A stretch of DNA of 64,000 nucleotides from Tessaracoccus lapidicaptus (GTDB lineage: Bacteria > Actinomycetota > Actinomycetes > Propionibacteriales > Propionibacteriaceae), in assembly GCF_001693815.1 (NCBI RefSeq), contig NZ_MBQD01000011.1, positions 248,001-312,000 on the forward strand, written 5' to 3'. The position numbers and the translations under genes are program-made. Of the stretch, positions 4,473 through 62,828 are shown piece by piece. Numbering within the stretch: position 1 is the first letter of the stretch; each line of letters starts with the position of its first letter. The notes below the pieces were generated by a model. It searched no databases, had not been told where the DNA came from, and was given only the letters and a program-made list of their open reading frames with translations.

Positions 4473-4592
4473 ATGTGGGCCGGGATCGGCGGCCTCGGCC
4501 CCATGGTCCTGACCGGCACGTTCGTCTACCTCTTCGTCATCCTGCGCCGCGCACTCAGCGCCGCGCCCGCTCCGGCTACCGTGGGGGCGTGA
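4473..4592 (+). CDS. Possible 39-aa single-span membrane peptide
   Basis: Small open frame in the gap before the histidine kinase, from ATG 4473 to TGA 4590-4592. It would encode one hydrophobic stretch (MVLTGTFVYLFVILRRA) followed by an Ala/Pro tail and overlaps the kinase GTG by 4 bp, as coupled genes do. Against it: no Shine-Dalgarno sequence precedes the ATG, and the kinase promoter-like hexamer lies inside its 3' end. It may be a remnant of a membrane gene or chance coding in GC-rich DNA. Confidence 0.25.
   Translation: MWAGIGGLGPMVLTGTFVYLFVILRRALSAAPAPATVGA
4577..4591 (+). promoter_or_regulatory. Leaderless promoter of the histidine kinase gene
   Basis: -10-like TACCGT at 4577-4582 is followed by 6 bases and the GTG start at 4589, so transcript and protein probably begin at the same base. 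This choice shortens the longest open frame, which reaches up to 4475. Confidence 0.55.
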
Positions 4593-5776
4593 CCACGACC
4601 ACCGCCCCGCGCTGGTCCGCCGCCTGGTGGCTCCGGCTCGGGCAGGCGGTCCTCTTCGTCGGCCTCCTGGCGCTGGCCACCGGCTTCGCGCTGGCCGACG
4701 GCGTCGACTGGCCGCTGCTGATCGTGGACTCCGCGGTCCTCGTCGTGTTCGTCGGCGGCCTCGCGGCCCACGGGCGGTTGGGTGCCACCGGGCGCGCTGC
4801 CTGGGTCGGGCTGCTGTTCCTGGGCACCGTGTGGCTGATGTGGGCGTCCCCGGACTTCCTGTGGGTGGCGTTCCCCCTGTGGCTGCTGGCCGGGGCCGTG
4901 CTCCCCCTGCTGGCCGCGCTGCTGTTGACGGCCGTGACCCTGGCGGTGATCATCACGGTGCTGAGCATGACGGGCGGCGAGACCGTCGGCGCGGTGCTCG
5001 GCCCGCTGGTCGGGGCGCTCGTGGCCCTCGGCCTGGCGCGGGGCACCCTGCTGTTCGAGCACGAGGCGTCCGAGCACCGTCGCCTCCTCGCGGAGGTGCT
5101 GCGCGTCCAGGACCAGACCGCCCGGCTGCAGCGCGAGGCGGGCGTCCTGGCGGAGCGGCAGCGGCTCGCCCACGACATCCATGACACCCTCGCCCAGGGC
5201 TTCTCCTCGATCCTCCTGCTCGCACGGGCCGCCCAGCGGGAGACCGACCAGGCGGCGGCGGTGCGCCTCCTGGCCCAGATCGAGACCACGGCGGCCGACA
5301 ACCTCGCCGAGTCGCGGCGCGTGGTCCTCGCCCTGGCGCCCGACGAGCCCGGCGCGGGCGGCCTCGCGGCGCCCCTGCGCCGCCTCACCGGCGAGGTGGC
5401 CGACGCACTCGGGGCCCGGTGGCAGGTGACGGTGGACCCCGACCTCCCGCGGCTGGCCACGCCCGTCGAGGTCGCGCTGCTGCGCGGAGTCCAGGGGGCC
5501 CTGTCCAACGTCCGCACGCACTCGCGGGCTGGGCACGTCGCCGTGGAGTTGGCCCGAGCCGGGGACGAGGTCCACCTCGACGTCGTCGACGACGGCGTGG
5601 GATTCGATCCCGCCCGGGCCGTCGTCGCCGGGCCCGACGGCGGCTTCGGCCTGCGTGCGCTGCGCGAGCGGTTCACCGAACTGGGCGGGGGCGTCGACAT
5701 CGAGAGCGAGCCGGGCGCAGGCACGGCCGTGACGCTGCGCCTGCCGCTGGTGCGCGCCGAGGAGCGGGCGCTGTGA
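4589..5776 (+). CDS. NarL-system sensor histidine kinase with membrane-embedded N-terminus
   Basis: Membrane sensor kinase of 395 aa. About five hydrophobic segments fill residues 15-150, a short helix rich in Glu, Arg and Gln follows, and the HisKA_3 dimerisation motif LAHDIHDTLAQGF places the phosphorylated His at 198. The HATPase_c domain closes the protein, with N-box Asn307, the DDGVGF and GGFGLRALRER ATP-lid motifs and a final GTAVTLRLP strand. No extracellular sensor loop is large enough to predict a ligand, so it probably senses through its membrane part. The response regulator gene overlaps by 4 bp and is its obvious partner. Confidence 0.92.
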   Translation: MTTTTAPRWSAAWWLRLGQAVLFVGLLALATGFALADGVDWPLLIVDSAVLVVFVGGLAAHGRLGATGRAAWVGLLFLGTVWLMWASPDFLWVAFPLWLLAGAVLPLLAALLLTAVTLAVIITVLSMTGGETVGAVLGPLVGALVALGLARGTLLFEHEASEHRRLLAEVLRVQDQTARLQREAGVLAERQRLAHDIHDTLAQGFSSILLLARAAQRETDQAAAVRLLAQIETTAADNLAESRRVVLALAPDEPGAGGLAAPLRRLTGEVADALGARWQVTVDPDLPRLATPVEVALLRGVQGALSNVRTHSRAGHVAVELARAGDEVHLDVVDDGVGFDPARAVVAGPDGGFGLRALRERFTELGGGVDIESEPGAGTAVTLRLPLVRAEERAL

Positions 5777-6393
5777 TCCGGGTGCTCATCGTCGACGACC
5801 ACCCCGTGGTGCGGTCAGGGCTCCAGGCGCTGCTCGAGGGCGCACCCGACCTCGCCGTCGTCGGGACCGCGGCCTCCGGGGAGGAGGCGCTGCGGCTGAC
5901 GGGTCAGGTGGACCCGGACGTGGTCCTGTGCGACCTGCGCCTCGGCCCCGGCCTCGACGGCGTCGGGGTGACGACGGCGCTGCGAGCGCACACGGGCGGT
6001 CCCGCCGTGCTGATCCTCACGACCTACGACAACGATTCCGACATCACCCGCGCCGTCCTCGCGGGCGCGGCCGGCTACCTGCTCAAGGACGCCCAGCCGG
6101 CGGAGATCATCGCGGGGATCGCGGACGCCGCCGCCGGACGCCTCGTGCTGTCCACCGAGTTGGAGGGCCGCGTCGTGGAGCGCATGACGCAGGGGGTGCC
6201 GTCGCTCAGCGCCCGCGAGCTGGACGTGCTGCGCCTGGTGGCGGAGGGGGTGACCAATCGCGGCATCGCGAAGCGGCTGTACATCTCGGAGGGCACGGTG
6301 AAGACCCACCTGGTGCACGCGTTCGCGAAGCTCGGCGCGGAGTCCCGCACGGCGGCCGTGGCGGCGGCGAGGCGCCACGGTCTCCTGGAGTGA
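5773..6393 (+). CDS. LuxR/NarL-family response regulator
   Basis: DNA-binding response regulator of 206 aa, partner of the kinase that overlaps it (GTGA). Receiver domain: acidic pair Asp8-Asp9, phospho-acceptor Asp54 in LCDLRLG, Thr83/84 and Lys105. The C-terminal GerE/LuxR helix-turn-helix covers about 144-206 (LSARELDVLRLVAEG, then NRGIAKRLYISEGTVKTHL). The target genes are unknown; no ABC exporter, a frequent partner of such pairs, lies next to it in this window. The stop is 4 bp from the convergent DinB-like gene. Confidence 0.95.
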   Translation: MIRVLIVDDHPVVRSGLQALLEGAPDLAVVGTAASGEEALRLTGQVDPDVVLCDLRLGPGLDGVGVTTALRAHTGGPAVLILTTYDNDSDITRAVLAGAAGYLLKDAQPAEIIAGIADAAAGRLVLSTELEGRVVERMTQGVPSLSARELDVLRLVAEGVTNRGIAKRLYISEGTVKTHLVHAFAKLGAESRTAAVAAARRHGLLE

Positions 6394-6397
6394 CGGC

Positions 6398-6946
6398 TCA
6401 GGCGTCGACGTCTCGGAGGTGGTGCACCCACTCGTGGGCGAAGTAGCGCCCCAGCGACAAGGTGGTGAACTCCGCCCCGTCGCCGCGCCGCCCGACCCAG
6501 CCCCATTGGGGGCCCTCGGGCTCGGCCCAGGCCTTCGCCGCACCCTCGGCACGCTCGGCGATGAGGATCCGGGTGGCATTGGCGTCGGAGAGCCAGTACT
6601 CGTCCTCGACGGCGGCCGCGTCCTGGTCCCAGGAGGGGAAGTCGACCGGCTCGCCACCGCCGTCGAGGATCAGGCCGAGCCGGGTGGTCATCACTTCGGT
6701 GACGTCGGCGATGTGCCGGCCGTACTCGATGACCGACCAGGTGGTGGGCGCGGGGCGGGCCGCGGCGCCGCGGCGTTCCACGGCCTTCTGGAAGCGGGCG
6801 GAGAACTCCCGGATCAGGCCGGGCACCGTCTCGGGCGTGACCGCGGCGGGATCGAACCCGCAGTCGGGGCAGGGGCGCTTGGTGACCCACGTCCAGTCCG
6901 TGTCGTCCGGAACGGTGGGCTGGGGCGGGATCGGCGACTCGCTCAT
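6398..6946 (-). CDS. DinB-superfamily (mycothiol-transferase-like) protein with N-terminal CxxC
   Basis: A 182-residue four-helix-bundle protein of the DinB/MDMPI superfamily, in Actinomycetota often metal-dependent thiol transferases that use mycothiol. Histidines suited to the metal triad appear in EYGRHIADV (near residue 74) and in the C-terminal FAHEWVHHL. Unusual for the family is an N-terminal CPDCGF pair (Cys26, Cys29), which could be a small metal or redox site. ATG 6946 is supported by TAGGCT seven bases upstream. The substrate is unknown. It is transcribed divergently from rnhA. Confidence 0.7.
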   Translation of the reverse strand: MSESPIPPQPTVPDDTDWTWVTKRPCPDCGFDPAAVTPETVPGLIREFSARFQKAVERRGAAARPAPTTWSVIEYGRHIADVTEVMTTRLGLILDGGGEPVDFPSWDQDAAAVEDEYWLSDANATRILIAERAEGAAKAWAEPEGPQWGWVGRRGDGAEFTTLSLGRYFAHEWVHHLRDVDA

Positions 6947-6959
6947 GGCCGCGAGCCTA
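6944..6959 (-). promoter_or_regulatory. Leaderless promoter of the DinB-superfamily gene
   Basis: On the minus strand TAGGCT (complement of 6954-6959) is followed by 7 bases and ATG at 6946. Confidence 0.55.
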
Positions 6960-7023
6960 ACCGATCCTGCCCATGGGACCGGTGCACCCCGTGCTGCGCC
7001 GCTGGGCCACATCAGGATTCCAC

Positions 7024-7039
7024 TACGCTCAGGCCCGTG
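7024..7039 (+). promoter_or_regulatory. Leaderless promoter of rnhA
   Basis: TACGCT at 7024-7029, 7-base spacer, then GTG 7037. Decides the start: the open frame runs upstream to 6419 without other support. Confidence 0.6.
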
Positions 7040-7906
7040 ATCGTTGCCGCCGCGGATGGCTCCGCCCTCTCGAACCCCGGACCCGCCGGCTGGGCCTGGT
7101 ACATCAGCGACGACATCTGGGCGGCCGGCGGGTGGGACCACGGCACCAACAACATGGGCGAACTCATGGCCGTGCTCGACCTCCTGCGTTCGACGGCGCA
7201 CCTGGACGAACCGCTGCGCGTCCTGTGCGACTCGCAGTACGTCATCAACTCGCTGACGAAGTGGCTGCCGGGCTGGAAGCGCAAGGGGTGGAAGAAGGGC
7301 GACGGCAAGCCCGTGATGAACGTCGAGCTCATGAAGGACCTCGACGCGGCGCTGCGCGGCCGGAAGGTCGACTTCGAGTGGGTCAAGGGCCACGCCGGCC
7401 ACGCCATGAACGAGGCCGCCGACGAGCGCGCCCGCGCCGTCGCCACGGCCATCCAGCGCGGCGAGCCCTACGACGCGGGACCCGGGTTCCCGGCCACGCC
7501 CCGGCCGAGCGCCCGGACCGACTTCAGCGTCGGCCAGACCGAACCCGAGCCCGACCTGTTCTCCCTCGACGCCCCCGCCGACCCGCCCCCGGCGGTCCCC
7601 GGGTCCGCCACGCCGCGCATGAAGGCCACACTCAGCACGCTCACGCGAGCCGCCGCGGCGCGCCCGGCTGACGCCCAACTCCATCCGGACTACCAGGGGG
7701 TGACGGCCGACGGGGGCGAGGCGCGCACGCCCGTGTGGCCCGCGGAGCCTGAGCCCACGCTGCTCCGCGTGGACACCCTCGCACCCGGGGTGGGCCTCGT
7801 GCGGTGGTCCGGGGGCGACGTCACCGTCTCGGCGATCTGGGTCGAGGTGCCGGCGGGATGGCGCCTCCGATTCGCCCAGGCGAGCGCACCCGCGGCGCGC
7901 CGATAG
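7037..7906 (+). CDS. rnhA: Ribonuclease HI with long C-terminal extension
   Basis: Endonuclease that cuts the RNA strand of RNA-DNA hybrids. Residues 1-145 form a complete RNase HI domain: catalytic Asp7, Glu42, Asp65 and Asp129, with His119 in VKGHAGH. The protein is 289 aa, about 135 longer than a plain RNase HI. The extra part has an acidic Pro-rich linker (about 165-205) and then a compact region with [15 protein letters not shown] and [19 protein letters not shown], vaguely like a DUF4440/SnoaL-type fold; that resemblance is weak. Start GTG 7037 is fixed by the adjacent -10 hexamer. Its stop lies within the metG promoter. Confidence 0.88.
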
Positions 7907-7919
7907 GATGACGCGCATG
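7904..7919 (+). promoter_or_regulatory. Leaderless promoter of metG
   Basis: TAGGAT at 7904-7909, 7-base spacer, ATG 7917. It favours ATG 7917 over the in-frame ATG 7908, which lies inside the hexamer. It overlaps the rnhA stop codon. Confidence 0.65.
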
Positions 7920-9701
7920 AGTCACGTTCTTGCCGCCGTCGCCTGGCCCTACGCCAACGGCCCCCGCCACATCGGTCACGTCTCGGGCTTCGGTGTCCCC
8001 TCCGACGTGTTCGCGCGCTACATGCGCATGGCCGGTCACGACGTGCTCATGGTGTCCGGCTCCGACGAGCACGGCACCGCGATCCAGGTGAAGGCCGACT
8101 CCGAGGGCCTGACGCCGAGGGAGACCGCCGACAAGTACCACCGCCAGATCGTCGAGGATCTCCAGGGCCTGGGGCTGTCCTACGACCTGTACACCCGGAC
8201 GACGACGCCGAACCACTACCGCGTGGTGCAGGACATCTTCACCGCCCTCTACGACAACGGCTACGTCCGCGCCGAAACGCAGATGGGCGCGATCTCCCCG
8301 TCCACCGGGCGCACCCTGCCGGACCGGTTCATCGAGGGCACGTGCCCGCTGTGCGGCTACCACAACGCCCGCGGCGACCAGTGCGACAACTGTGGCAACC
8401 AGCTCGACCCGGCCGACCTCATCGATCCGAAGTCCAAGATCAACGGGGAGACGCCCGAGTTCGTCGAGACCGAGCACTTCTTCCTCGACCTGCCGGCCCT
8501 GGCCCCCATGCTGGGCCAGTGGATCGACAGCCGCGAGGACTGGCGGCCCAACGTGCTGAAGTTCTCCCACAACCTGCTCGCGGAGATCCGGCCGCGCGCC
8601 ATCACCCGCGACCTCGACTGGGGCGTCCCCGTCCCGCTCGAGGGGTGGCGCGACGCCCCCATGAAGCGCATCTACGTCTGGTTCGACGCCGTCATCGGCT
8701 ACCTGTCGGCCTCCGTCGAGTGGGCGAAGCGCTCGGGCGACCCGGAGGCGTGGCGCACCTTCTGGAACTCGACGGCGGCGCGCTCCTACTACTTCATGGG
8801 CAAGGACAACATCGTCTTCCACTCCGTCATCTGGCCCGGCATCCTGCTCGGCGCCAACGGGCAGGGGGTCCACGGCGGCCACGTGCGGGAGTCGCTGGGC
8901 GAACTGCAGCTGCCCACCGAGGTGGTCAGCTCCGAGTTCATGACGATGAAGGGCTCCAAGGTGTCCAGCTCGCGGGGCGCGTCCATCTTCGTGGGGGACT
9001 TCCTCGCCGAGTTCGGCCCCGACGCCCTGCGCTACTACATCGCCGTGGCCGGTCCGGAGAACCAGGACACGGACTTCACCTGGGAGGAGTTCGTCCGGCG
9101 GATCAACTTCGAGCTGGCCAACGAGTGGGGCAACCTCGTCAACCGGTCCGTGTCGATGGCCCACAAGAATGTGGGCGCCGTGCCCGCGGCGGGGGAGCTG
9201 ACCCCGGCCGATCAGGCGCTGCTGGACGAGAGCCGCGCCGCGTTCGCCGTCGTGGGCGAGCACATCGCCGCGCGCCGGTTCAAGGCCGGCATCACTGAGG
9301 CGATGCGCATCGTCGGCCTGGCCAACAAGTACCTGTCGGATCAGGAGCCCTGGAAGCTCAAGGACGACCCCGCCCGCCGCGACACCGTCCTCCACGTCGC
9401 GCTGCAGGTGGTCTCCGACTGCAACACGCTGCTCACCCCCTACCTGCCTCATTCAGCGCAGAAGGTCTTCGAGCTCCTGGGCGGCGAGGGCGTGTGGGCG
9501 GCGCAGCCCCAGATCGTCGACGTGACCGACGAGGACCTGACCTACCCGACGCTGCAGGGCGACTACGCCGCGCAGCAGGCCGTGTGGCAGCCCCGTCCCC
9601 TCCAGGTGGGGGCACCGCTCAGCAAGCCGACGCCGCTGTTCACGAAGCTCGACGAGGCGCTGGGCCTCACCGGGCCGAGCTGGGCGCCGATCGCCGACTG
9701 A
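7917..9701 (+). CDS. metG: Methionyl-tRNA synthetase
   Basis: Class I aminoacyl-tRNA synthetase that charges tRNA-Met, essential for translation; 594 aa. The ATP-binding HIGH motif is His18-Ile-Gly-His21, the KMSKS loop is the variant KVSSS at 348-352, and the connective domain holds a four-Cys zinc site (Cys143, Cys146, Cys156, Cys159). The protein ends after the anticodon-binding helices and lacks the extra C-terminal tRNA-binding domain of long MetRS forms. ATG 7917 was preferred over ATG 7908 because of the promoter hexamer. The 3' end overlaps the convergent kinase gene by 35 bp. Confidence 0.96.
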
Positions 9702-10278: not shown

Positions 10279-10290
10279 TGGAGAATGCTA
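10276..10290 (-). promoter_or_regulatory. Leaderless promoter of the P-loop kinase gene
   Basis: Minus-strand TAGCAT (complement of 10285-10290), 6-base spacer, ATG 10278. Confidence 0.6.
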
Positions 10291-10309
10291 ACGCCCCGCC
10301 GGCGGGCGG

Positions 10310-12124: not shown

Positions 12125-12136
12125 GCGTCCACTGTA
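12122..12136 (-). promoter_or_regulatory. Leaderless promoter of the DUF2207 gene
   Basis: Minus-strand TACAGT (complement of 12131-12136), 6-base spacer, ATG 12124. Confidence 0.55.
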
Positions 12137-14635: not shown

Positions 14636-14647
14636 CCCGCCAGCATA
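14633..14647 (-). promoter_or_regulatory. Leaderless promoter of the PNP-mutase operon
   Basis: Minus-strand TATGCT (complement of 14642-14647), 6-base spacer, GTG 14635. Confidence 0.6.
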
Positions 14648-16876: not shown

Positions 16877-16889
16877 GCTCCCCACGATA
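16874..16889 (-). promoter_or_regulatory. Leaderless promoter of the unknown membrane protein gene
   Basis: Minus-strand TATCGT (complement of 16884-16889), 7-base spacer, ATG 16876. Confidence 0.5.
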
Positions 16890-19678: not shown

Positions 19679-19690
19679 GCCGCCACTCTA
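19676..19690 (-). promoter_or_regulatory. Leaderless promoter of the small lipoprotein gene
   Basis: Minus-strand TAGAGT (complement of 19685-19690), 6-base spacer, GTG 19678. Confidence 0.6.
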
Positions 19691-22078: not shown

Positions 22079-22090
22079 GGGGTCACGATA
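22076..22090 (-). promoter_or_regulatory. Leaderless promoter of the accD-accE-maf operon
   Basis: Minus-strand TATCGT (complement of 22085-22090), 6-base spacer, ATG 22078. Confidence 0.6.
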
Positions 22091-22135: not shown

Positions 22136-22151
22136 TAGGATGGCGGCCGTG
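22136..22151 (+). promoter_or_regulatory. Leaderless promoter of birA
   Basis: TAGGAT at 22136-22141, 7-base spacer, GTG 22149. It shares the 70-bp divergent region with the accD promoter. Confidence 0.6.
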
Positions 22152-23464: not shown

Positions 23465-23479
23465 TATGCTGCCCCGGTG
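23465..23479 (+). promoter_or_regulatory. Leaderless promoter of purK-purE
   Basis: TATGCT at 23465-23470, 6-base spacer, GTG 23477. Confidence 0.6.
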
Positions 23480-31920: not shown

Positions 31921-31933
31921 GTCTGCGATCCTA
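31918..31933 (-). promoter_or_regulatory. Leaderless promoter of the TIGR03089 gene
   Basis: Minus-strand TAGGAT (complement of 31928-31933), 7-base spacer, ATG 31920. Confidence 0.6.
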
Positions 31934-31947: not shown

Positions 31948-31962
31948 TAGCCTCCTCGCATG
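31948..31962 (+). promoter_or_regulatory. Leaderless promoter of manC
   Basis: TAGCCT at 31948-31953, 6-base spacer, ATG 31960. Its -10 is only 14 bp from the divergent TIGR03089 -10. Confidence 0.6.
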
Positions 31963-38078: not shown

Positions 38079-38091
38079 ACGCGTCACCTTA
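38076..38091 (-). promoter_or_regulatory. Leaderless promoter of the zincin-like gene
   Basis: Minus-strand TAAGGT (complement of 38086-38091), 7-base spacer, ATG 38078. It faces away from the DUF3499 promoter 13 bp further on. Confidence 0.55.
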
Positions 38092-38103: not shown

Positions 38104-38118
38104 TACCCTCTGTCCGTG
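38104..38118 (+). promoter_or_regulatory. Leaderless promoter of the DUF3499 gene
   Basis: TACCCT at 38104-38109, 6-base spacer, GTG 38116. Confidence 0.55.
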
Positions 38119-38510: not shown

Positions 38511-38526
38511 TACGCTTGGCCCCGTG
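38511..38526 (+). promoter_or_regulatory. Leaderless promoter of manB
   Basis: TACGCT at 38511-38516, 7-base spacer, GTG 38524. Confidence 0.6.
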
Positions 38527-41111: not shown

Positions 41112-41558
41112 ATGAACACGGTCCTCGTCCTCAACGGTCCCAACCTCGGGCGGCTCGGCACCCGCCAGCCCGAGGTCTACGGCGGCACGACCCACGCGGA
41201 TCTCGCGGAACACCTCGTCGAGACCGGCCGCGGCATGGGCCTGGAGGTCGAGGTCCGGCAGACGGACCACGAGGGCGAGATGATCGCCTGGCTGCACGAG
41301 GCCGCCGACACCGGCGCCGCCGTCGTCCTCAACGCCGGGGCGTGGACGCACTACTCCTACGCCGTCGCGGACGCCGCCGCCCTGGTCAGCCGCTACGTGG
41401 AGGTCCACATCTCCAACGTGCACGCGCGCGAGGAATTCCGCAGCCACAGCGTGCTCTCAGCCAAGGCGTCGGGCATCATCATCGGCTGCGGCGTCGGCGG
41501 CTACGACCTCGCGCTGGCCCACCTCGCCGCGACCGGGGAGGCGTCCACGGCCGGGTAG
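41112..41558 (+). CDS. aroQ: Type II 3-dehydroquinate dehydratase
   Basis: Shikimate-pathway enzyme that dehydrates 3-dehydroquinate; 148 aa, the standard size. [18 protein letters not shown] at 7-24 holds the active-site loop with Tyr23, Asn74 and His80 lie in [12 protein letters not shown], and His104 and Arg110 lie in [15 protein letters not shown]. No other shikimate gene is near. It sits between the SIS-like gene (5 bp away) and sahH, whose promoter hexamer uses the aroQ stop codon. The duplicated or relocated copy could support quinate use or be the only copy; the window does not tell. Confidence 0.93.
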
Positions 41559-41568
41559 AGTGGCCCGC

Positions 41569-43210: not shown

Positions 43211-43222
43211 GTCCCCATGCTA
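43208..43222 (-). promoter_or_regulatory. Leaderless promoter of the DUF3039 gene
   Basis: Minus-strand TAGCAT (complement of 43217-43222), 6-base spacer, ATG 43210. Confidence 0.6.
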
Positions 43223-48397: not shown

Positions 48398-49750
48398 TCA
48401 GAGGTTCGGCACCACCGGGGCGGCCTGGTAGGGGTTCGTGGTCTCGTCGCCCGCCGAATCGAGGATGATCGTCTCCAGCGCCGGGTCGCCCTTCGAGATG
48501 CGCAGGGCGGCTACCGGGAGTTCGGCACGGGACTGCTCGTGACGGCGACGGGCGTCGTCCAGGGTCGCATGGTGCACGAGCTCCCCGGCGCGGTAGATCG
48601 GCACGAGCAGGTTGCGGTCGTTGCCGTCGTCGACCGGCGGCGTGCCCAGCCCGATGACCTCCGACTCGGCCCGGCCGTCGGCACCGCGCCGGCGCATCGC
48701 GAACTTCCTGCCGCCCAGGGTGTTCTTGCCCTTCGACTTCTTCGCGACGGGGGTCATGGGGGCGCTCGGGTCGTCCGAGTCCGCCCGGGCGACCAGCTTG
48801 TAGACGAAGCCGCAGGTCGGGTGGCCCGAGCCGGTCACCAGCGACGTGCCGACGCCGTAGCCGTCGACGGGGGCGCCCTGCAGTGCGGCGATCTGCCACT
48901 CGTCGAGGTCGGAGGTCACCATGATCCGGGTGTGCGTGGCGCCGAGGTCGTCGAGCAGGTCGCGGGCGCGGCGGGCCGCGATCGCGAGGTCGCCGGAGTC
49001 GAGGCGGATGGCGCCCAGCCGGCCGCCGGTCAACTCGATGCCGGTGCGGATGGCGTCGTCGATGTCGTAGGTGTCGACGAGCAGCGTCGTGGCATGCCCC
49101 AGGGTGTCGATCTGGGCGCGGAACGCGTCCTCCTCGCTGTCGTGCAGCAGCGTGAACGAGTGCGCGGCGGTCCCGATCGTCGGCACGCCATAGCTGCGGC
49201 CCGCCTCCAGGTTCGATGTCGTCGCGAAGCCCGCGACATACGCGGCCCGCGCCGCGGCCACGGCGGACCACTCCTGCGTGCGCCGCGACCCCATCTCCGC
49301 GCAGGGCCGGTCCCCGGCCATGGCGGTCATGCGGGAGGCGGCCGCGGCGATGGCCGAGTCGTGGTTGTAGACGCTGAGCAGGATCGTCTCGAGGATGCAG
49401 GCCTCCGCGAAGGTGCCCTCGACGGACAGGACGGGGGAGCCGGGGAAGTACACCTCGCCCTCGGGGTAACCCCAGATGTCGCCCGAGAACCGGTAGCCGG
49501 CGAGCCATTCGGCCAGATTCTCCCGGATGATGCCGCGTTCCATCAGCCACGTGAGTTCGGCCTCGTTGAACCGGAAGCGTTCGATCGCCTCGATCACGCG
49601 TCCCAGGCCGGCGACCACCCCGTAGCGGCGCCCCTCCGGCAGTCGCCGGGTGAACAGGTCGAAGAGGCTGCGCCGATTCGCCGTGCCGGCGTTCATCGCG
49701 GCCTGCACCATGGTCAGCTCGTAGTGGTCGGTGAGCAACGCGGTGGTCAT
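48398..49750 (-). CDS. pncB: Nicotinate phosphoribosyltransferase
   Basis: NAD salvage enzyme that joins nicotinate to PRPP; 450 aa. N-terminal [32 protein letters not shown], the active-site His in [11 protein letters not shown] near 135 and [20 protein letters not shown] near 310 (phosphate site) are present. ATG 49750 has a leaderless promoter whose -10 overlaps that of clpS on the other strand. The convergent stretch to the cytidylate-kinase-like gene holds a weak 5-bp stem only. Confidence 0.94.
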
Positions 49751-49763
49751 GGACGGCACCCTA
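49748..49763 (-). promoter_or_regulatory. Leaderless promoter of pncB
   Basis: Minus-strand TAGGGT (complement of 49758-49763), 7-base spacer, ATG 49750. It shares bases 49762-49763 with the clpS -10. Confidence 0.6.
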
Positions 49764-49777
49764 TCCTTGGGGGCATG
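49762..49777 (+). promoter_or_regulatory. Leaderless promoter of clpS
   Basis: TATCCT at 49762-49767, 7-base spacer, ATG 49775. Divergent from and overlapping the pncB -10. Confidence 0.6.
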
Positions 49778-50664: not shown

Positions 50665-50680
50665 TACAATCGGGCACGTG
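50665..50680 (+). promoter_or_regulatory. Leaderless promoter of murI
   Basis: TACAAT at 50665-50670, 7-base spacer, GTG 50678. The closest to consensus of all the hexamers. Confidence 0.65.
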
Positions 50681-51517
50681 AGCGACCTCCTCGACCGGCC
50701 CATCGGCGTCTTCGATTCCGGGTTCGGTGGTCTCACGGTCCTGCGGTCGCTCGTCGAGCAGCTGCCCAACGAGGACTTCATCTATCTGGGCGACACCGCC
50801 CGCGCACCCTACGGCCCGCGCTCCATCGCGGAGGTGCGCCGCTTCGCGCTGCAGGGCCTCGACTTCCTGGTGGCCCAGGGCGTGAAGGCGCTGGTCATCG
50901 CGTGCAACTCGGCCTCGTCGGCCGTGCTGCGCGACGCGCGCGAGCGCTACGACGTGCCCATCACCGAGGTCGTGCTGCCGGCCGCCAGCCGCGCGGTGGC
51001 AGCGACCCGCAACTCGCGGGTGGCCGTCGTCGCCACCGAGTCGACGGTGAACTCGCGATCGTACGACGACGCGTTCGCCATCGCCCCCCACATCACCCTG
51101 ACGGCCCAGGCGTGCCCGCGCTTCGTCGAGTTCGTCGAGGCGGGGATCACGGGTGGCGACGAGCTCCTCACCGTCGCGCGCGAGTACCTCGAGCCGGTCA
51201 TCAAGGCCCAGGCCGACACCCTCATCCTCGGCTGCACGCACTACCCGCTGCTCAGCGGCGTCATCAGCTACGTGCTGGGCAACGGGGTGACGCTCGTCTC
51301 GTCGGCCGAGGCGTGCGCGCAGTCCACCTACGCGCAGCTGACGCAGGCCGGCCTGCTGCGGCACCAGCCGCGCGAGGCCACGCGCACGTTCCTCACCACC
51401 GGCGACGCCACGGACTTCCAGGGCATCGGCCGGCGCCTCCTCGGGGGCTTCGTCACCGATGTCCGGCAGGTCCGGATCGATGCAGATTCGCCGCAGCCGC
51501 TCGCGCCGGTAGGTTAG
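50678..51517 (+). CDS. murI: Glutamate racemase
   Basis: Makes D-glutamate for peptidoglycan; 279 aa. Cofactor-independent two-cysteine racemase: acid/base Cys76 in ACNSASS and Cys186 in GCTHYP, with Asp13-Ser in FDSGFGGLT and [11 protein letters not shown] near 36-46. GTG 50678 is supported by TACAAT. It leads the murI-rph-rdgB-thyA run; rph has its own promoter sequence 5 bases past... the murI stop region, so expression may be split. Confidence 0.95.
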
Positions 51518-53683: not shown

Positions 53684-53698
53684 TAGCCTACGCGCATG
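53684..53698 (+). promoter_or_regulatory. Leaderless promoter of the DUF1707 gene
   Basis: TAGCCT at 53684-53689, 6-base spacer, ATG 53696. It may also drive folA and dinB. Confidence 0.6.
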
Positions 53699-54984: not shown

Positions 54985-54992
54985 TCGGCCCG

Positions 54993-56381: not shown

Positions 56382-56383
56382 CA

Positions 56384-56443: not shown

Positions 56444-56447
56444 ATCC

Positions 56448-56520: not shown

Positions 56521-56559
56521 CCTCAACCCCGTCCGCTGATGGTGTGGGGAGCCGTGACC

Positions 56560-56645: not shown

Positions 56646-56837
56646 GTTCCCGTCTCCCCCCACTGGTTCGACGGTGGCGTGGCCGGGTCCGGGTGCGTGC
56701 CGGCGGGGCGGCCCTGGCAGGGGTTCGTCTAGGCGGGACGCCAGCCGGGCGATCCTCGGGTTGGGCATCACTGCGCGCAGCCGCCCCCCGTCCCACCCCC
56801 TCGCGGGACCCCATCGATCGCTGGGTTGGCGCCGGCA

Positions 56838-56911
56838 CCGTTCGCTGAGGTCGCGCCCGACGGCGGAGCCGTCCGGGCGAGTCTCGAAGCCGACGCCGCA
56901 GGCGTCGATCC
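56838..56911 (+). repeat. Direct repeat copy 3 (74 bp)
   Basis: Identical to copy 2 over 73 bases and ends 54 bp before the DUF222 gene start. Both hairpins are intact. Confidence 0.9.
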
Positions 56912-56964
56912 GTGACCGAAGCACCGATCCGAAATTGTCAGTGGCCCCTGTCAGAATAGTTCAC

Positions 56965-58404
56965 ATGAGTGATTCCATGCGCGAGCAGATGCAGCGATCC
57001 ATCGCTGCACTGTGGGACGCCGCGCTGTCACTCACCACCGACGACACCCCCGCAGACCGCCTCTCCGGCCTCGTCGCCGCGGTCACCGAGGCCGAAGCCC
57101 AACTGGCTGGTCTACGCCTCCATCTCCTGCATGAGGCGAAGCTGGCCGCGGCGGAGAGCGTGATCGATGGGGTGCGGCAGTCGGTGCGCACCACCCCCGC
57201 CCAGGCCACCGCCAGTCTCCGGCTCGCGCAGGACCTGTGCGATCGGTTCCCGCTGATCGGCGCCGCCTTGAACGACGGCACCATCTCGCTGCCCCAGGCC
57301 GACGCCATCGTCACCGGCTTGCGGAAGCTCCCTGGGCGATTGACCCGGGCGGAGCTGACGCGCTGCGAGGAGGAGATCCTCGCCCACACCGACACCCTCG
57401 GCCCGTCCGAGCTGCGAGTGTTGGCGGCGCGTCTGGTCGAGATCATCGACCCCGACGCATCGGATGCCGACGATGCGAAGCGCCTCGCGCGGGAGGAAGC
57501 CGCAGCTCATCGGGGTCGGTTCCTACGTCTCGCGCCGGACTATCACGGCTCCATGCGCATCACCGGACAGTTGCCGGTCGCGGACGCGGCGTTGTTGATT
57601 GCGCAACTGGACGCCTTGATGCCGGACGCCTCCACCTACACCTCCGCCGGGGAGGCCGCGTCCCGGGACGCGCGCCGGGCGGATGCGCTGGTCCTGCTCA
57701 CCCAGAAAGCCGCCAACATCGGAACGCTGCCCAGGCATGGTGGGGACAGGCCGCAGTTGCACGTCACCCTCGACCTCGACACCCTCACCACCGGCCTCGG
57801 CAAGGCCGGCTTGATCGGTCTCGACGACGTCGACGGCCTCTCCGCCGGCGAGGTCCGCCGCCTGGCGTGCGATGCCGGGATCATCCCCGTCGTGCTGGGC
57901 GGACCATCCCGCCTGCTGGATGTGGGCCGGACCTACCGCATGTTCACTCCCGGCCTGCGGGCAGCGCTGGTGCAGCGCGACGGTGGCTGCGCGTTCCCCG
58001 GCTGTGCCGCCACCCCGGCTTGCTGCGAGGCGCATCACATCGTCCCCTGGTGGCAGGGCGGGGACACCCGGCTAGGAAACGGCGTGCTGCTCTGTCCGCA
58101 CCATCACCGCCTGGTGGAACCGGATCCTCTGCAGTCGGAGCAGTCGCAGTGGCGGGTGGATCTGGATCCGGTGACCGGGCTGCCGTGGTTCACCCCACCG
58201 CGACACATCGACCCGGCCAGACGCCCCCGGCAACACCGCCGCTTCCGGCTCCGACAGATCCGGGCCGGGGCACCACCGGGCCCAGACGACGACCCGCCCA
58301 ACACGGACCCGCCCGACTCTCCCGGCACCGGTCCGGCCGACCACCGTTCGGATCTGGACGACCTCATCCGCCGCTCCGCCGCCATCTGGGGCGGTGAGGG
58401 CTAA
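56965..58404 (+). CDS. DUF222 domain HNH endonuclease (REP13E12-type)
   Basis: A 479-residue protein with an N-terminal DUF222 domain (about 1-300, helical, with TPAQATASLRLAQDLCDRFPLIGAALNDGTISLPQADAIV) and a C-terminal HNH nuclease: CAFPGCAATPACCEAHHIVPWWQGGDTRLGNGVLLCPHHHRLVE at about 350-393, with metal His and Cys residues complete. A Pro/Arg/Asp-rich tail follows. This is the architecture of the 13E12 repeat family of mycobacteria, present in many copies and linked to prophage attachment. The ATG at 56965 lies shortly after three hairpin repeats. The stop overlaps the convergent DUF2254 gene by 4 bp. Activity and mobility are not shown. Confidence 0.9.
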   Translation: MSDSMREQMQRSIAALWDAALSLTTDDTPADRLSGLVAAVTEAEAQLAGLRLHLLHEAKLAAAESVIDGVRQSVRTTPAQATASLRLAQDLCDRFPLIGAALNDGTISLPQADAIVTGLRKLPGRLTRAELTRCEEEILAHTDTLGPSELRVLAARLVEIIDPDASDADDAKRLAREEAAAHRGRFLRLAPDYHGSMRITGQLPVADAALLIAQLDALMPDASTYTSAGEAASRDARRADALVLLTQKAANIGTLPRHGGDRPQLHVTLDLDTLTTGLGKAGLIGLDDVDGLSAGEVRRLACDAGIIPVVLGGPSRLLDVGRTYRMFTPGLRAALVQRDGGCAFPGCAATPACCEAHHIVPWWQGGDTRLGNGVLLCPHHHRLVEPDPLQSEQSQWRVDLDPVTGLPWFTPPRHIDPARRPRQHRRFRLRQIRAGAPPGPDDDPPNTDPPDSPGTGPADHRSDLDDLIRRSAAIWGGEG

Positions 58405-59711
58405 GGCTGGGCTGGGGGCAGGACCACCGTGGTGGAGCGACTCGTGGCGACGTACTCCCGCAGAGCGCCCAGGTCCCTCGTGTCCAGTTGGCCGGCCGCC
58501 GCTGTGAGCAACTCGTCGACGCGATCATCGACCCGCGCGGCGATGGTCGGGTCCACGGCTGCGGCCCGGATCCGGGCGGCCAGGTCCACGAGGGTCTCGA
58601 GCACGATCCGCGACCCGGCGCCGTAGGGGCGGATGTGGTCGAACGGCATGTCCACGATCTCGGCGGTCTCGACGAGGCGCAGGTAGAGCCTGGGCGCTCC
58701 GGCGTCGTCGACGAGGATGGTGCCGGTGTCGGGCCGCGACACCGCCAGCAGGATGCCGACCGCGACCTCCTCGACCGCGTTGATGGCCGTGTACGGGTCG
58801 TTGATGCCGGGGGACAGGGCCCGGACGGCGAGCTCGACGACCTGTTGCTCGGCGAACCGCACATCCTGCTCGGTGGTGCGGGAGGCCCCGACGTGCACGT
58901 GGTCCCGGATCCGGGACTCCGCGGCGTCGCGCCGCTCCGCCGGCCAGACGAGCGCAAGCGGTTCGTCGCCGACGACCTGGTCCCCGACCCGCTTGAGCAG
59001 CCGGGCGGAGGCGTCGACGTCGGCCATGTCATGGGCGAGGGCCTCGACGTCGACATTCGTGAGGTATCCGGTGCGCCCGAGGGTGACGACGGCGCCCCCG
59101 TCGGCGGGCGGCTCGAAGGATTCGATGCGCTCGTCGTCGGGATCGAGCCAGTTGTCGGCGACCGCCCGCCGGAAGTCGTCGGTGGCGCCGTTGACCAGGT
59201 TGTCCACCTGCACCGAGCCCGCGATGTGGTGGATGAACCACACGAACAGGAACACGTCGATGACCCCGAGCCCGATCGCGCCGTTGACGGCGAGGTGCGG
59301 GACGAAGGCAGTGCCGTCGTCGGACTCGGACCGGATGGTGCGCAGTACCAGCAGGGTGTAGACGAACGTGGCGACGAGCACACCCAGGACGATCTGGTTG
59401 TTGCGGTCGCGCATGAAGTTGCGCACCAGCCGCGGCCCGTACGAGGTCGACGCGGTGCTGATCACCGAGATGGTGATCGAGAACGCGGTCCCGGCGACCC
59501 CGAGGAACGACGCGACGGCCGACAGTAGCGCGCGGGCGCCGTCGACTCCGGTCGCGAACAGGAACCCCTCGAGGAGGGGCGGCAACGTGAGAGCCGAGCG
59601 GTCCACGGCCACGAGTGCCTGGGACACCACGATGGCCCCCGCGATGAAGATCGCCGGGATGAACCAGAAGCGTTGCGGAATGCCGGCCAGCCAGCTGCGG
59701 AGTCTGCCCAT
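58401..59711 (-). CDS. DUF2254 family membrane protein
   Basis: A 436-residue membrane protein of unknown function. Four hydrophobic helices lie at about 15-35, 60-85, 107-127 and 143-165; the large C-terminal part is soluble, with RALSPGINDPYTAINAVEEV (a DUF2254 signature) near 290 and ILVDDAGAPRLYLRLVETAEIVD. The ATG at 59711 follows TAGCCT by six bases. Convergent with and overlapping the DUF222 gene by 4 bp at the stops; divergent from thpR. Confidence 0.88.
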   Translation of the reverse strand: MGRLRSWLAGIPQRFWFIPAIFIAGAIVVSQALVAVDRSALTLPPLLEGFLFATGVDGARALLSAVASFLGVAGTAFSITISVISTASTSYGPRLVRNFMRDRNNQIVLGVLVATFVYTLLVLRTIRSESDDGTAFVPHLAVNGAIGLGVIDVFLFVWFIHHIAGSVQVDNLVNGATDDFRRAVADNWLDPDDERIESFEPPADGGAVVTLGRTGYLTNVDVEALAHDMADVDASARLLKRVGDQVVGDEPLALVWPAERRDAAESRIRDHVHVGASRTTEQDVRFAEQQVVELAVRALSPGINDPYTAINAVEEVAVGILLAVSRPDTGTILVDDAGAPRLYLRLVETAEIVDMPFDHIRPYGAGSRIVLETLVDLAARIRAAAVDPTIAARVDDRVDELLTAAAGQLDTRDLGALREYVATSRSTTVVLPPAQP

Positions 59712-59723
59712 GGGCAGAGGCTA
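59709..59723 (-). promoter_or_regulatory. Leaderless promoter of the DUF2254 gene
   Basis: Minus-strand TAGCCT (complement of 59718-59723), 6-base spacer, ATG 59711. Faces away from the thpR promoter 15 bp further on. Confidence 0.6.
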
Positions 59724-59738
59724 GTGGAGGGCCGCGGC

Positions 59739-59754
59739 TAGGGTTGGCGCTATG
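59739..59754 (+). promoter_or_regulatory. Leaderless promoter of thpR
   Basis: TAGGGT at 59739-59744, 7-base spacer, ATG 59752. Confidence 0.6.
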
Positions 59755-60321
59755 GGAGCGCGCATGTTCACCGCCGTCCTGCCGCCCGCCCCCGCCGTCG
59801 CGGAGCTCGACGCGCTGTTGGAGCCCCGCCGCGGCGCGGACCCGACGCTGCGGTGGACCCGGCCGGAGGGGTGGCACGTCACGACGTCGTTCATGGCCGA
59901 TGTGCCGGCCGCGTCTCTCGAGCGCCTCGAGGAGAACCTCGCCGAGGTGGCGCAGCGGGCGCATCCGTTCGTCATCCGGCTCGCCGGAGGGTTGGCCTTC
60001 CCGCACGCGGGGAGGGCCAGGATCCTCGCCCTGGGGGTGCCGGAGGGTCACGTCGAGTTGGCGGCGCTGTCGTCGTCCTGCCGGGGTGCCGCGAGTCGTG
60101 CGGGGGCCGAGGCGGACGGCGCCCGATTCGTCGGTCACCTCACATTGGCCCGGCACAACCGCGGCCTCACCGCGGTGCGTTGGCTGGAGATCCTCGACTC
60201 GTTCCCCGGCTGGCGCTGGACGGCCGAGGAACTGTGCCTGGTGGAGTCCCATCCCGGCGCCCGCTACGAGGTGGTGTCGCGGTTCCCGCTGGGCGGAGCG
60301 GTCGGGCGTCACCTAGACTAG
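59752..60321 (+). CDS. thpR: RNA 2',3'-cyclic phosphodiesterase (2'-5' RNA ligase-like)
   Basis: A 189-residue 2H phosphoesterase. Both catalytic HxT motifs are present, His42-Val-Thr44 and His129-Leu-Thr131, at the spacing of the 2'-5' RNA ligase/ThpR family. It probably opens 2',3'-cyclic phosphates on RNA. ATG 59752 is placed by the promoter. Its stop (TAG 60319-60321) overlaps a TAGACT hexamer that may drive the tRNA 20 bp downstream, so it and the tRNA are close but need not be co-transcribed. Confidence 0.85.
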   Translation: MGARMFTAVLPPAPAVAELDALLEPRRGADPTLRWTRPEGWHVTTSFMADVPAASLERLEENLAEVAQRAHPFVIRLAGGLAFPHAGRARILALGVPEGHVELAALSSSCRGAASRAGAEADGARFVGHLTLARHNRGLTAVRWLEILDSFPGWRWTAEELCLVESHPGARYEVVSRFPLGGAVGRHLD

Positions 60322-60340
60322 GGCCGCCCCGCAGGGGCGA
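60314..60340 (+). promoter_or_regulatory. Possible promoter of tRNA-Leu
   Basis: TAGACT at 60314-60319, then a short hairpin (60326-60330 with 60334-60338) directly before the tRNA. No clear -35. Confidence 0.35.
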
Positions 60341-60422
60341 GCCGAAGTGGTGGAATTGGCAGACACGCAGGATTTAGGTTCCTGTGCCTTCGGGCGTGAG
60401 GGTTCAAGTCCCTTCTTCGGTA
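60341..60422 (+). tRNA. tRNA-Leu (anticodon UAG)
   Basis: Cloverleaf with acceptor stem 60341-60347 paired to 60415-60421 (one G-U pair at the top), D-arm TGGAATTGGCAGACAC, anticodon stem CAGGA/TCCTG around loop TTTAGGT with anticodon TAG at 60375-60377, the long variable arm of class II tRNAs (TGCCTTCGGGCGT) and T-arm GAGGG-TTCAAGT-CCCTT. Discriminator A at 60422; CCA is not encoded. Reads CUA codons, a rare Leu codon in GC-rich genomes, and possibly other CUN. Confidence 0.93.
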
Positions 60423-60455
60423 CCGCGTAAATCCGGGTTCAGCCAACCTGTGAGA

Positions 60456-60473
60456 ACCTGAGAAAGCTCAGGT
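60456..60473 (+). terminator. Perfect 7-bp hairpin after tRNA-Leu
   Basis: ACCTGAG-aaag-CTCAGGT 34 bases past the tRNA end. No T-run; it could stop the tRNA transcript or be part of the leader of the peptidase gene. Confidence 0.4.
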
Positions 60474-60556
60474 GTGAAGCCCCCTGTCAGGTCCACGGCG
60501 GGCCCATTCTGTGTGCTGGCAAGCTGTGTAAGTGGCCAGTCGACGTTTGGTGAACG

Positions 60557-60571
60557 CTGAGAAATTCTCAG
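60557..60571. promoter_or_regulatory. 15-bp perfect palindrome upstream of the M23 gene, operator candidate
   Basis: CTGAGAA-A-TTCTCAG is fully symmetric and lies 36 bp before the GTG of the M23 peptidase gene. The same CTGAG core recurs at 60459-60462 and 60578-60582, so a regulator or RNA structure may use it. Confidence 0.4.
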
Positions 60572-60607
60572 AATGGTCTGAGGTATTCCGACCAGAAAGG
60601 TTCCCGC

Positions 60608-61690
60608 GTGAACTTCGATCCATCCATCCAGCCACGCCGCGCCCTCGACTGGGCACCTCGCCCCACGGCCTGGTGGCGCCGCTCAGCGGTCGCGGCTCTG
60701 GCCACTGCCTCCGTCGGGCTGGGTTCCCTCGCCGTGGCAGCGCCCGTGTCGGCGGCCGAACCGGAGCCGACCACCGCCGCCGTCACCGTCGAGGTCGAGC
60801 CCGCCTCGAGCGTGTCCGTCGACATCACGCCGGCCTCGGACGAGCGGGCCGGCTCGGACTCCGCGTCGGGAGCCGCCGATGAGGCAGGGCAGGGCGCCGA
60901 GAAGGAGCCCATCGACGAGCAGGTCGCCGAGGAGCCCGCCGCTCAGGAGCCGGGAATGGCTGAGCCTGCCGCGGAGGAGCCTGCAGCCGACCAGCCTGCA
61001 GCCGAACAGCCCGCGGCCGAACAGCCCGCGGCCGAACAGCTCGCGGCCGAACAGCTCGCGGCCGAACAGCTCGCGGCCGAACAGCCCGAACCCGAACAGC
61101 CCGCCGCGGAAGCGCCCGCCGCCGCCGCGCCGACCACCTCCGCCGCGCGCCGGTCGGCGTCCTCGACGGCACCCGAGACGCCCAGCCCCGCCTCCACGCC
61201 GCGGCGTGCCGCGACCTCGCCGGGATCGGCCGCGACGGTCGCCGCCGGCACGGCCGCTCTCGCGGCGGTCGACGGCGCCTCGCTTCCCCTCGCTCCTGGG
61301 ACATTCCGGGTGAGCGCGCTGTTCGGCGCGACGGGCAGCTGGGCGAGCTACCACACCGGCATGGACTTCTCGGCGGCCTCCGGGGCGCCGGTGCATGCCG
61401 TGGTGTCGGGCACGGTCGTCGCCACCACCGCGGGCTCCTGGGCGGGCACGCACGTCGCCATCCAGGCCGCCGACGGATCCTCCACGCTCTACGCCCATCT
61501 GAGCGGCAGAACGGTCTCCGTGGGGGACCGCATCGAGGCCGGCGAGGTGCTCGGATACGTCGGCGACACCGGCCGCGCCTTCGGCGACCACCTGCACTTC
61601 GAGTACTACCCGGCCGGCGTGACCCCCGGTGACGTCTACGGCGCCACCGACCCGCTGGCCTACCTGGCGGGCCTCGGCCTGGCGCTCTAG
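60608..61690 (+). CDS. Secreted M23-family peptidase with PAAEQ repeat linker
   Basis: Extracellular protein of 360 aa. The signal peptide has a long n-region with WWRR, hydrophobic core and VSA near 49. Then an acidic linker (51-215) with eight 5-residue repeats, mostly PAAEQ or LAAEQ (125-164), and a C-terminal LytM/M23 domain: HTGMDFSA, YAHLSG and HLHFEY supply the zinc ligands. It should cleave peptidoglycan peptide bridges or activate other hydrolases. GTG 60608 has AAAGG about six to ten bases before it. The leader of 185 bp is unusually long here and contains dyads. Confidence 0.88.
   Translation: MNFDPSIQPRRALDWAPRPTAWWRRSAVAALATASVGLGSLAVAAPVSAAEPEPTTAAVTVEVEPASSVSVDITPASDERAGSDSASGAADEAGQGAEKEPIDEQVAEEPAAQEPGMAEPAAEEPAADQPAAEQPAAEQPAAEQLAAEQLAAEQLAAEQPEPEQPAAEAPAAAAPTTSAARRSASSTAPETPSPASTPRRAATSPGSAATVAAGTAALAAVDGASLPLAPGTFRVSALFGATGSWASYHTGMDFSAASGAPVHAVVSGTVVATTAGSWAGTHVAIQAADGSSTLYAHLSGRTVSVGDRIEAGEVLGYVGDTGRAFGDHLHFEYYPAGVTPGDVYGATDPLAYLAGLGLAL
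60980..61099 (+). repeat. 15-bp minisatellite inside the M23 gene (8 units)
   Basis: Eight in-frame 15-bp units. Units 3-4 are identical and units 5-7 are identical, a sign of recent unit duplication. They encode five-residue repeats of the PAAEQ/LAAEQ kind. Confidence 0.9.
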
Positions 61691-62343
61691 CCGACCCACC
61701 TCTCGCCCACGGGGACCGGGGAGAGCGAGCCCGCCGACAACGTCGCCATGGCGACGGCGAGTTCGTCCTCGGTCCCCGCCTGCACGGCTACGGTGATGTG
61801 CGCCGCGTCGGTCCACTCGACCCCGTCCACCACCACTGACGCCCCCGACGGCAGCACCAGACCTCGGAGCTGATCCTCGACCCCGCCGGCGGCGGCGAAG
61901 CCGACGTCGACGCGCAGCACCCGGCACAGCCGGACCTCGCGGACCCCGGAGGCCGCGATCCCCGCGGCGACCGCGTCCGAGTAGGCGCGCACCAGACCTC
62001 CGGCGCCGAGCTTGATGCCGCCGAAGTAGCGGGTGACGACGGCCACCACGTCGGTCAGGCCGTTCTTCTGCAGCACCTGCAGCATCGGGACGCCCGCGGT
62101 GCCGGCGGGCTCCCCGTCGTCAGAGCTGCGTGCGGTGCGCCCGTCTGGGCCCAGGACGAACGCCGAGCAGTGGTGCCGGGCGTCGAAGTGCGCCGAACGT
62201 CGTTCCTCGACGACGGCGCGGGCCGCCTCCTCGGTCTCGACGCGACGCAACCGGGTGAGGAACCTCGAGCGCTTGATCTCCAACTCGACGTCAACGCCGC
62301 CGTCCACGGCGGTGTCGATGGTGCGGAAGGCGGTACTAGACAC
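61687..62343 (-). CDS. YigZ/IMPACT family protein
   Basis: A 218-residue protein of the YigZ family (UPF0029 plus a C-terminal DUF1949-like ferredoxin fold). Motifs: EIKRSRFLTRLRRVETEEAA near 24, HFDARHHCSAFVLG near 53, SSDDGEPAGTAGVPML near 73 and VTRYFGGIKLGAGGLVRAYSDA near 103-124. Ribosome-related functions were proposed for relatives. GTG 62343 overlaps the upstream peroxiredoxin gene by 8 bp, so it is likely in one operon with it. The stop overlaps the convergent M23 gene stop by 4 bp. Confidence 0.9.
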   Translation of the reverse strand: MSSTAFRTIDTAVDGGVDVELEIKRSRFLTRLRRVETEEAARAVVEERRSAHFDARHHCSAFVLGPDGRTARSSDDGEPAGTAGVPMLQVLQKNGLTDVVAVVTRYFGGIKLGAGGLVRAYSDAVAAGIAASGVREVRLCRVLRVDVGFAAAGGVEDQLRGLVLPSGASVVVDGVEWTDAAHITVAVQAGTEDELAVAMATLSAGSLSPVPVGERWVG

Positions 62344-62815
62344 CCAGTTCGCGGCGCAGCTTGGCCACGTGCCCCGTCGCCTTCACGTTGTACTGGGCGA
62401 CCCGGACGGTGCCGACCCCGTCGCCGTCGACGTCGATGACGAACGTCGAGCGCAGCACGCCCTCGATCTCCTTGCCGTACAGCTTGCGGGGGCCGTAGGC
62501 GCCGTAAGCGTCGTGTACGACCCGCTCGGGGTCGGCCAGCAGGGTGAAGCCCAGGTCCGAGGACTTGCTGAACTTGGCCAGCCGCTCCACGGGGTCGGGG
62601 GAGCAGCCCAGCACGCTGTACCCGGCGTCGTGGAACGCGTCGATGGCCGTGGAGAAGTCCACGGCCTGCGTGGTGCAGCCCGGCGTCATGGCGGCGGGGT
62701 AGAAGTAGAGGATCACCGCGCGGCCGGCGAAGTCGGCCAGCGAGACCTCGTCACCGTCCTGGTTCGGGAGCGTGAAGGATGGCGCGGTCGAGCCCGTGGT
62801 CAGTCGTGCGGTCAT
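62336..62815 (-). CDS. bcp: Peroxiredoxin (BCP/PrxQ type) without the usual resolving Cys
   Basis: Thiol peroxidase of 159 aa that would reduce hydrogen and organic peroxides. The peroxidatic Cys is Cys47 in AAMTPGCTTQAV, and LPNQDGDEVSL and YFYPAAMTPG are typical. The resolving Cys five residues on in standard PrxQ is Val here (CTTQAVDF); another Cys at 71 (VLGCSPDP) could act instead. ATG 62815 follows TAGAAT by seven bases; an ATG at 62824 lies inside that hexamer. yigZ overlaps its end. Confidence 0.9.
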   Translation of the reverse strand: MTARLTTGSTAPSFTLPNQDGDEVSLADFAGRAVILYFYPAAMTPGCTTQAVDFSTAIDAFHDAGYSVLGCSPDPVERLAKFSKSSDLGFTLLADPERVVHDAYGAYGPRKLYGKEIEGVLRSTFVIDVDGDGVGTVRVAQYNVKATGHVAKLRRELGV

Positions 62816-62828
62816 GCGCGACATTCTA
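62813..62828 (-). promoter_or_regulatory. Leaderless promoter of the peroxiredoxin-yigZ operon
   Basis: Minus-strand TAGAAT (complement of 62823-62828), 7-base spacer, ATG 62815. Confidence 0.6.

Follow-up and report, generated by a model that had tools for sequence, protein, structure and literature searches.

In a 64,000-nucleotide stretch of the Tessaracoccus lapidicaptus genome (assembly GCF_001693815.1, contig NZ_MBQD01000011.1, positions 248,001 to 312,000; hereafter the window), 27 ATG or GTG codons are preceded, at a distance of 6 or 7 bases, by a hexamer of the form TANNNT, and it is very likely that the corresponding genes have a leaderless mRNA architecture, with the -10 promoter element so placed that the RNA begins at the start codon itself. 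This reading, already put forward in a preliminary description of the window, is based on the motif and its spacing, the scarcity of Shine-Dalgarno sequences, the base at position -1, the gene context and the conservation in relatives, while the RNA 5' ends, the sigma factor and the leaderless mode of translation are predicted here from sequence. According to the mechanism proposed, TANNNT would be the -10 element of promoters read by the housekeeping sigma factor, where RNA polymerase would melt the DNA and begin RNA at a purine 7-8 bases downstream. That initiating purine would be the first letter of the start codon, A in ATG or G in GTG, with a pyrimidine just before it, and the resulting mRNA would have neither a 5' leader nor a Shine-Dalgarno sequence, so that ribosomes would begin on the 5'-terminal start codon.

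In the window, TANNNT was sought on both strands wherever a 6- or 7-base spacer separates it from a downstream ATG, GTG or TTG. The ATG and GTG matches, 14 on the plus and 13 on the minus strand, reproduce exactly the count of the preliminary description; the first hexamer begins at 4577 and the last ends at 62828. In 25 of the 27 cases the codon lies in frame with a called gene, and the remaining two (14635 minus, purine-nucleoside phosphorylase; 22149 plus, birA) are the starts of genes that the first caller missed. Counted by codon, the signal precedes 17 of 360 ATG codons in gene frames versus none of 829 elsewhere, and 8 of 862 GTG codons in gene frames versus 2 of 1569 elsewhere, which are those same two starts. 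Only one of 565 TTG codons carries it (33068), probably by chance, as the caller prefers ATG 33122, which has GGGAGG upstream. The 27 hexamers are listed below with the start codon that each precedes (nt, nucleotides; aa, amino acids).

4577..4582, plus strand: TACCGT, 6 nt before GTG 4589, sensor histidine kinase-like
6954..6959, minus strand: TAGGCT, 7 nt before ATG 6946, 182 aa, no NCBIfam match; divergent partner of rnhA
7024..7029, plus strand: TACGCT, 7 nt before GTG 7037, ribonuclease H (rnhA)
7904..7909, plus strand: TAGGAT, 7 nt before ATG 7917, metG; TAG doubles as stop of the upstream rnhA open reading frame (ORF)
10285..10290, minus strand: TAGCAT, 6 nt before ATG 10278, uridine kinase-like
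12131..12136, minus strand: TACAGT, 6 nt before ATG 12124, 604 aa, weak membrane-protein domain match
14642..14647, minus strand: TATGCT, 6 nt before GTG 14635, purine-nucleoside phosphorylase
16884..16889, minus strand: TATCGT, 7 nt before ATG 16876, 258 aa, no NCBIfam match
19685..19690, minus strand: TAGAGT, 6 nt before GTG 19678, 137 aa, no NCBIfam match
22085..22090, minus strand: TATCGT, 6 nt before ATG 22078, carboxyltransferase, mmdA-like; divergent with birA
22136..22141, plus strand: TAGGAT, 7 nt before GTG 22149, birA
23465..23470, plus strand: TATGCT, 6 nt before GTG 23477, purK
31928..31933, minus strand: TAGGAT, 7 nt before ATG 31920, TIGR03089 family
31948..31953, plus strand: TAGCCT, 6 nt before ATG 31960, manC
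38086..38091, minus strand: TAAGGT, 7 nt before ATG 38078, 144 aa, no NCBIfam match
38104..38109, plus strand: TACCCT, 6 nt before GTG 38116, 124 aa, no NCBIfam match
38511..38516, plus strand: TACGCT, 7 nt before GTG 38524, manB, phosphomannomutase
41556..41561, plus strand: TAGAGT, 7 nt before GTG 41569, sahH; TAG doubles as stop of the upstream ORF
43217..43222, minus strand: TAGCAT, 6 nt before ATG 43210, 79 aa, no NCBIfam match
49758..49763, minus strand: TAGGGT, 7 nt before ATG 49750, pncB; TA in common with the clpS hexamer
49762..49767, plus strand: TATCCT, 7 nt before ATG 49775, clpS
50665..50670, plus strand: TACAAT, 7 nt before GTG 50678, Asp/Glu racemase family, murI
51510..51515, plus strand: TAGGTT, 7 nt before ATG 51523, rph; last T also opens the TAG stop of the preceding gene
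53684..53689, plus strand: TAGCCT, 6 nt before ATG 53696, DUF1707 protein
59718..59723, minus strand: TAGCCT, 6 nt before ATG 59711, DUF2254 membrane protein
59739..59744, plus strand: TAGGGT, 7 nt before ATG 59752, LigT-like, thpR
62823..62828, minus strand: TAGAAT, 7 nt before ATG 62815, peroxiredoxin

To place these counts in a wider frame, stretches of the same genome adding up to 1.26 Mb, window included, were used as a control sample (G+C 0.71); the genome comprises 3.09 Mb in 27 contigs. The MetG protein is 88% identical to two Tessaracoccus records and 82-85% identical to Arachnia-type records, which places the host in the Propionibacteriaceae, within the Actinobacteria. Genes were called with a crude, purpose-made program that uses simple coding scores and is blind to the motif, giving 1049 genes in the sample. 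For each of them, the leaderless start was defined as the motif-bearing in-frame candidate nearest to the blind start, with ATG and GTG admitted. When every in-frame candidate close to the called start is counted, 100 genes carry TANNNT at spacing 6 and 102 at spacing 7, against 4 at spacing 5, 15 at spacing 8 and 2-12 at each spacing from 9 to 24. In 202 of the 1049 genes (19.3%, or 18.1% after baseline subtraction), a share above chance, TANNNT thus stands some 12 bp ahead of the start at spacing 6 or 7. The chosen start coincides with the blind one in 117 of the 202 genes and differs from it in the other 85, with 67 of the 202 lying at least two codons upstream or being otherwise displaced.

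The signal is enriched at starts. Among the 972 genes whose blind starts entered the codon classes (overlaps moved the rest to other classes), 117 have the signal, 66 at spacing 6 and 51 at spacing 7, compared with 0-9 at each of the other spacings from 0 to 20. In contrast, it precedes 5 of 17,519 internal in-frame ATG or GTG (RTG) codons, 2 of 6158 sense off-frame RTG and 6 of 34,701 antisense RTG, so that the equal frequency at non-start codons, which the preliminary description had named as evidence against its reading, was not observed. When 1045 upstream regions were dinucleotide-shuffled 100 times, 5.1 +/- 2.0 matches and at most 14 were obtained, versus 117 in the real sequences. An enrichment over shuffled controls, a check proposed earlier, was therefore obtained in the sample, and the earlier expectation of less than one chance match among the starts of the window is right. 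Two further classes were counted: in-frame RTG up to 120 nt after a blind start (23 of 1957) and RTG outside called genes (113 of 10,612; 63 at spacing 6 and 50 at spacing 7, versus 14-35 at each other spacing), the excess in the latter being taken to be true starts upstream of the blind calls. Selection against internal copies of the signal was also considered and none was seen, as internal in-frame RTG gave 0 and 5 matches at spacings 6 and 7 and 0-6 at the others. Relaxing the first base of the hexamer (not T) adds about 80-100 genes, namely some 100 by the pooled baseline and some 80 when the comparison is limited to spacings that share a reading phase, while loss of the A or of the last T adds few or none.

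We then focused on the marks expected of leaderless transcripts. A Shine-Dalgarno sequence between -19 and -5 is found in 1 of the 202 leaderless genes, as compared to 317 of 847 other genes and 1087 of 17,015 internal RTG, a scarcity that agrees with the earlier claim and that follows in part from where the hexamer lies. Position -1 is occupied by a pyrimidine in 169 of the 202 leaderless genes, versus 486 of 847 others and 8984 of 17,015 internal RTG, in agreement with RNA beginning at the codon. Genes with spacing 7 follow this preference more closely (94 of 102) than those with spacing 6 (75 of 100; p = 0.001), as would be expected because at spacing 7 the -1 base sits at the usual RNA-start distance and should initiate poorly. 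Moreover, in the base profiles TA tends to be followed by G, and the hexamer by GG (58-61% each). As expected of promoters, the signal occurs in none of the 176 genes that overlap an upstream gene on the same strand, versus 111 of the 308 that face a divergent neighbor.

Conservation was evaluated in family-wide searches, using the best 30 loci per gene, and for metG in the best 80 of 591 loci; any in-frame candidate start near the match was accepted. Loci under 3000 bases were dropped (1 of 30 for clpS, 3 of 30 for peroxiredoxin and 1 of 30 for manC; none for sahH or malQ). The signal stands at spacing 6 or 7 in all 29 manC loci and in 26 of the 27 peroxiredoxin loci, in neither case with a locus at spacing 5 or 8; manC counts at spacings 15-25 are read as other in-frame ATG or GTG codons near the same hexamer. 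For metG, 55 of the best 80 loci, mostly recorded as Propionibacteriaceae and Pseudonocardiaceae, have it at 6 or 7, and spacing 8 was counted in 21 loci. Overall, this gene-by-gene evidence suggests that the leaderless state has been kept across the family at manC and peroxiredoxin. Of the ambiguous starts that the hexamer was said to fix, peroxiredoxin 62815 and metG 7917 are thereby upheld, and sahH 41569 is upheld in part.

Several observations weigh against the leaderless reading. At sahH the family support is weaker, with 19 of 30 loci at spacing 6 or 7 and 7 more at spacing 8, and at clpS the full TANNNT is found at these spacings in only 5 of 29 loci; CANNNT, in which the A and the last T are kept and the first T is not, occurs in 18 of the 29. 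The signal is likewise present in 6 of 30 loci of malQ (45357), a control gene without leaderless architecture in the window. Class-wide conservation is also weaker, at 14 of 29 loci for peroxiredoxin, 5 of which are short and may be wrongly anchored, and at 5 of 9 for manC, one of the five being a weak match (L308, E 5e-4). In addition, base profiles of the leaderless genes have no clear -35 box, the hexamer itself lies within the -19 to -5 stretch scanned for Shine-Dalgarno sequences, and the contrast in gene context is favored by the method, as the position of leaderless genes was taken from the motif start and that of the others from the blind start. With regard to malQ, in-frame stops were noted in orthologues; in the four such loci checked (L293, L295, L296 and L297) they lie only a few codons from the end of the match and look like normal gene ends.

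Other explanations were weighed on the same evidence. That the pattern stems from start-site choice or base composition, either as an annotation artefact or by chance, is scarcely credible: even though starts were set by simple coding scores and the leaderless start departs from the blind call in 85 of 202 genes, the caller was blind to the motif and its own starts peak sharply at spacings 6 and 7, the shuffled regions fall far short of the real ones, and orthologues retain the signal. It is also very improbable that the hexamer works as a translation signal or a regulator site instead of a promoter. Its fixed distance to the start codon would suit such a role, but it equals the -10 consensus that mapped transcription start sites (TSS) yielded for a member of the family (Lin et al. 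2013, PMC3848588), and a translation signal would still be needed in the 176 genes overlapping an upstream same-strand gene, all of which lack it.

A closer alternative applies to the spacing-7 class, whose hexamers would be real -10 boxes with the RNA beginning one base before the codon, giving 1-nt leaders. The optimal -10-to-TSS distance of 7 bp given by Warman et al. 2026 (PMC12825309) would indeed put the TSS on -1 in these genes, but the base there is nearly always a pyrimidine, a poor initiating base, and more consistently so than at spacing 6, so that we regard such leaders as unlikely. As this alternative concerns half of the genes and overlaps with the leaderless reading, the probabilities assigned to the explanations do not add up to one.

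Regarding abundance, leaderless genes are concentrated in the window, with 27 of 64 called genes versus 175 of 985 elsewhere in the sample (Fisher p = 1.1e-5, uncorrected for the choice of window). When 64-kb bins were made on pieces of at least 64 kb, none exceeded the window, the nearest (25 of 62 and 24 of 64) overlapping it, and the excess persists when three gene contexts are taken one by one (p 0.002 to 0.02). The high share noted in the preliminary description thus holds for the window as an outlier and not for the sample, where 202 of 1049 genes is ordinary for the phylum; an unusually high genome-wide share was rejected, as exact TANNNT in 19% of the sample genes equals the published actinobacterial mean. 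Likewise, the narrow gap of 6-7 bases, singled out earlier as special, is the ordinary geometry from -10 to RNA start.

Leaderless genes were also found in compact arrangements with their neighbors. In the sample, 22 of 154 divergent gene pairs have the signal on both genes, and in three pairs, whose starts are separated by 19, 24 and 25 bp, the -10 hexamers overlap. At pncB/clpS (49750-49775), the hexamers on opposite strands have the TA at 49762-49763 in common, forming a putative shared -10, and the whole intergenic region measures 24 bp; judged by these signals, both genes are probably leaderless. A two-strand scan of the same clpS and manC loci, in which the plus strand was allowed NANNNT and spacing 8 and the minus-strand ORFs are only putatively pncB or TIGR03089, found signals on both strands in 23 of 29 clpS loci, each hexamer beside its own start. 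A conserved distance within divergent pairs was rejected, since start-to-start distances in these clpS loci vary from 25 to 210 bp. Opposite manC, a minus-strand signal precedes an ORF of at least 120 aa in 23 of 29 loci, and two of those ORFs (406 and 421 aa) are probably other genes.

Overlap with the preceding gene takes a second form. The TAG stop of the previous gene provides the first three bases of the -10 in eight leaderless genes of the sample, including metG (7904-7906) and sahH (41556-41558); sample genes end in TGA in 862 cases, in TAG in 148 and in TAA in 39. Furthermore, 35 of the 102 spacing-7 genes have an in-frame decoy ATG or GTG inside the -10, nine bases upstream of the start, and the blind caller took 16 of them. 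Decoys of this kind at 7908, 41560 and 62824 in the window can mislead start callers. Tentatively, in these GC-rich genomes leaderless genes would need almost no upstream DNA and may build their -10 from the signals of other genes, giving recurrent compact arrangements (shared -10 boxes with 18-24 bp between start codons, or a TAG stop used within the -10) in which polymerase would choose one direction at a time in divergent pairs; we hold this to be possible, though somewhat less probable than its opposite. Among the papers listed in literature searches, no title described leaderless genes with bidirectional promoters or an overlap of -10 and stop codon, which does not amount to a claim that none has been published. 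In E. coli, Warman et al. 2026 (PMC12825309) described bidirectional promoters with shared -10 elements, with common TSS distances of 18, 10 and 23. Overlapping -10 hexamers are common to both cases, but here both presumed TSS are start codons and the whole intergenic region is 18-24 bp.

The phenomenon itself is already known for the phylum, its signal, spacing and meaning having been published in 2011 and leaderless mRNAs of the same family having been mapped in 2013. Zheng et al. 2011 (PMC3160421) report that TA-led genes average 19.2% in Actinobacteria (range 2.3-29.8), in agreement with the earlier remark that leaderless translation is known in this group; the genes described here have the same TANNNT about 12 bp upstream with the same meaning, and differ in nothing in kind from those in that report. 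In Propionibacterium acnes, Lin et al. 2013 (PMC3848588) obtained TAnnnT as the -10 by RNA-seq, together with leaderless mRNAs whose start codons lie on the TSS, with ATG in 68% and GTG in 29%. The 202 genes found here have 135 ATG and 67 GTG, TTG being excluded by design, and differ from that member of the same family in being known from sequence alone. According to Cortes 2013 (PMC3898074), TSS of Mycobacterium tuberculosis favor a purine at +1, with C before it at -1 and T after it at +2, and Shell 2015 (PMC4633059) reports that mycobacteria need an ATG or GTG at the 5' end and that such a codon suffices. The mycobacterial genes in these two reports resemble those described here in the TANNNT -10, the lack of a conserved -35, C at -1 and RTG at +1, and genes leaderless in one species are often leaderless in the other. 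However, mycobacteria belong to another order and were studied by RNA-seq and, in Shell 2015, by ribosome profiling. More widely, leaderless transcription has been reported in up to 40% of transcripts in 21.6% of bacterial species (PMC9581028). Within this known framework, the value of the present results resides in the corrections of start codons and in the gene-by-gene evidence, across the family, for the predicted leaderless state of manC and the peroxiredoxin.

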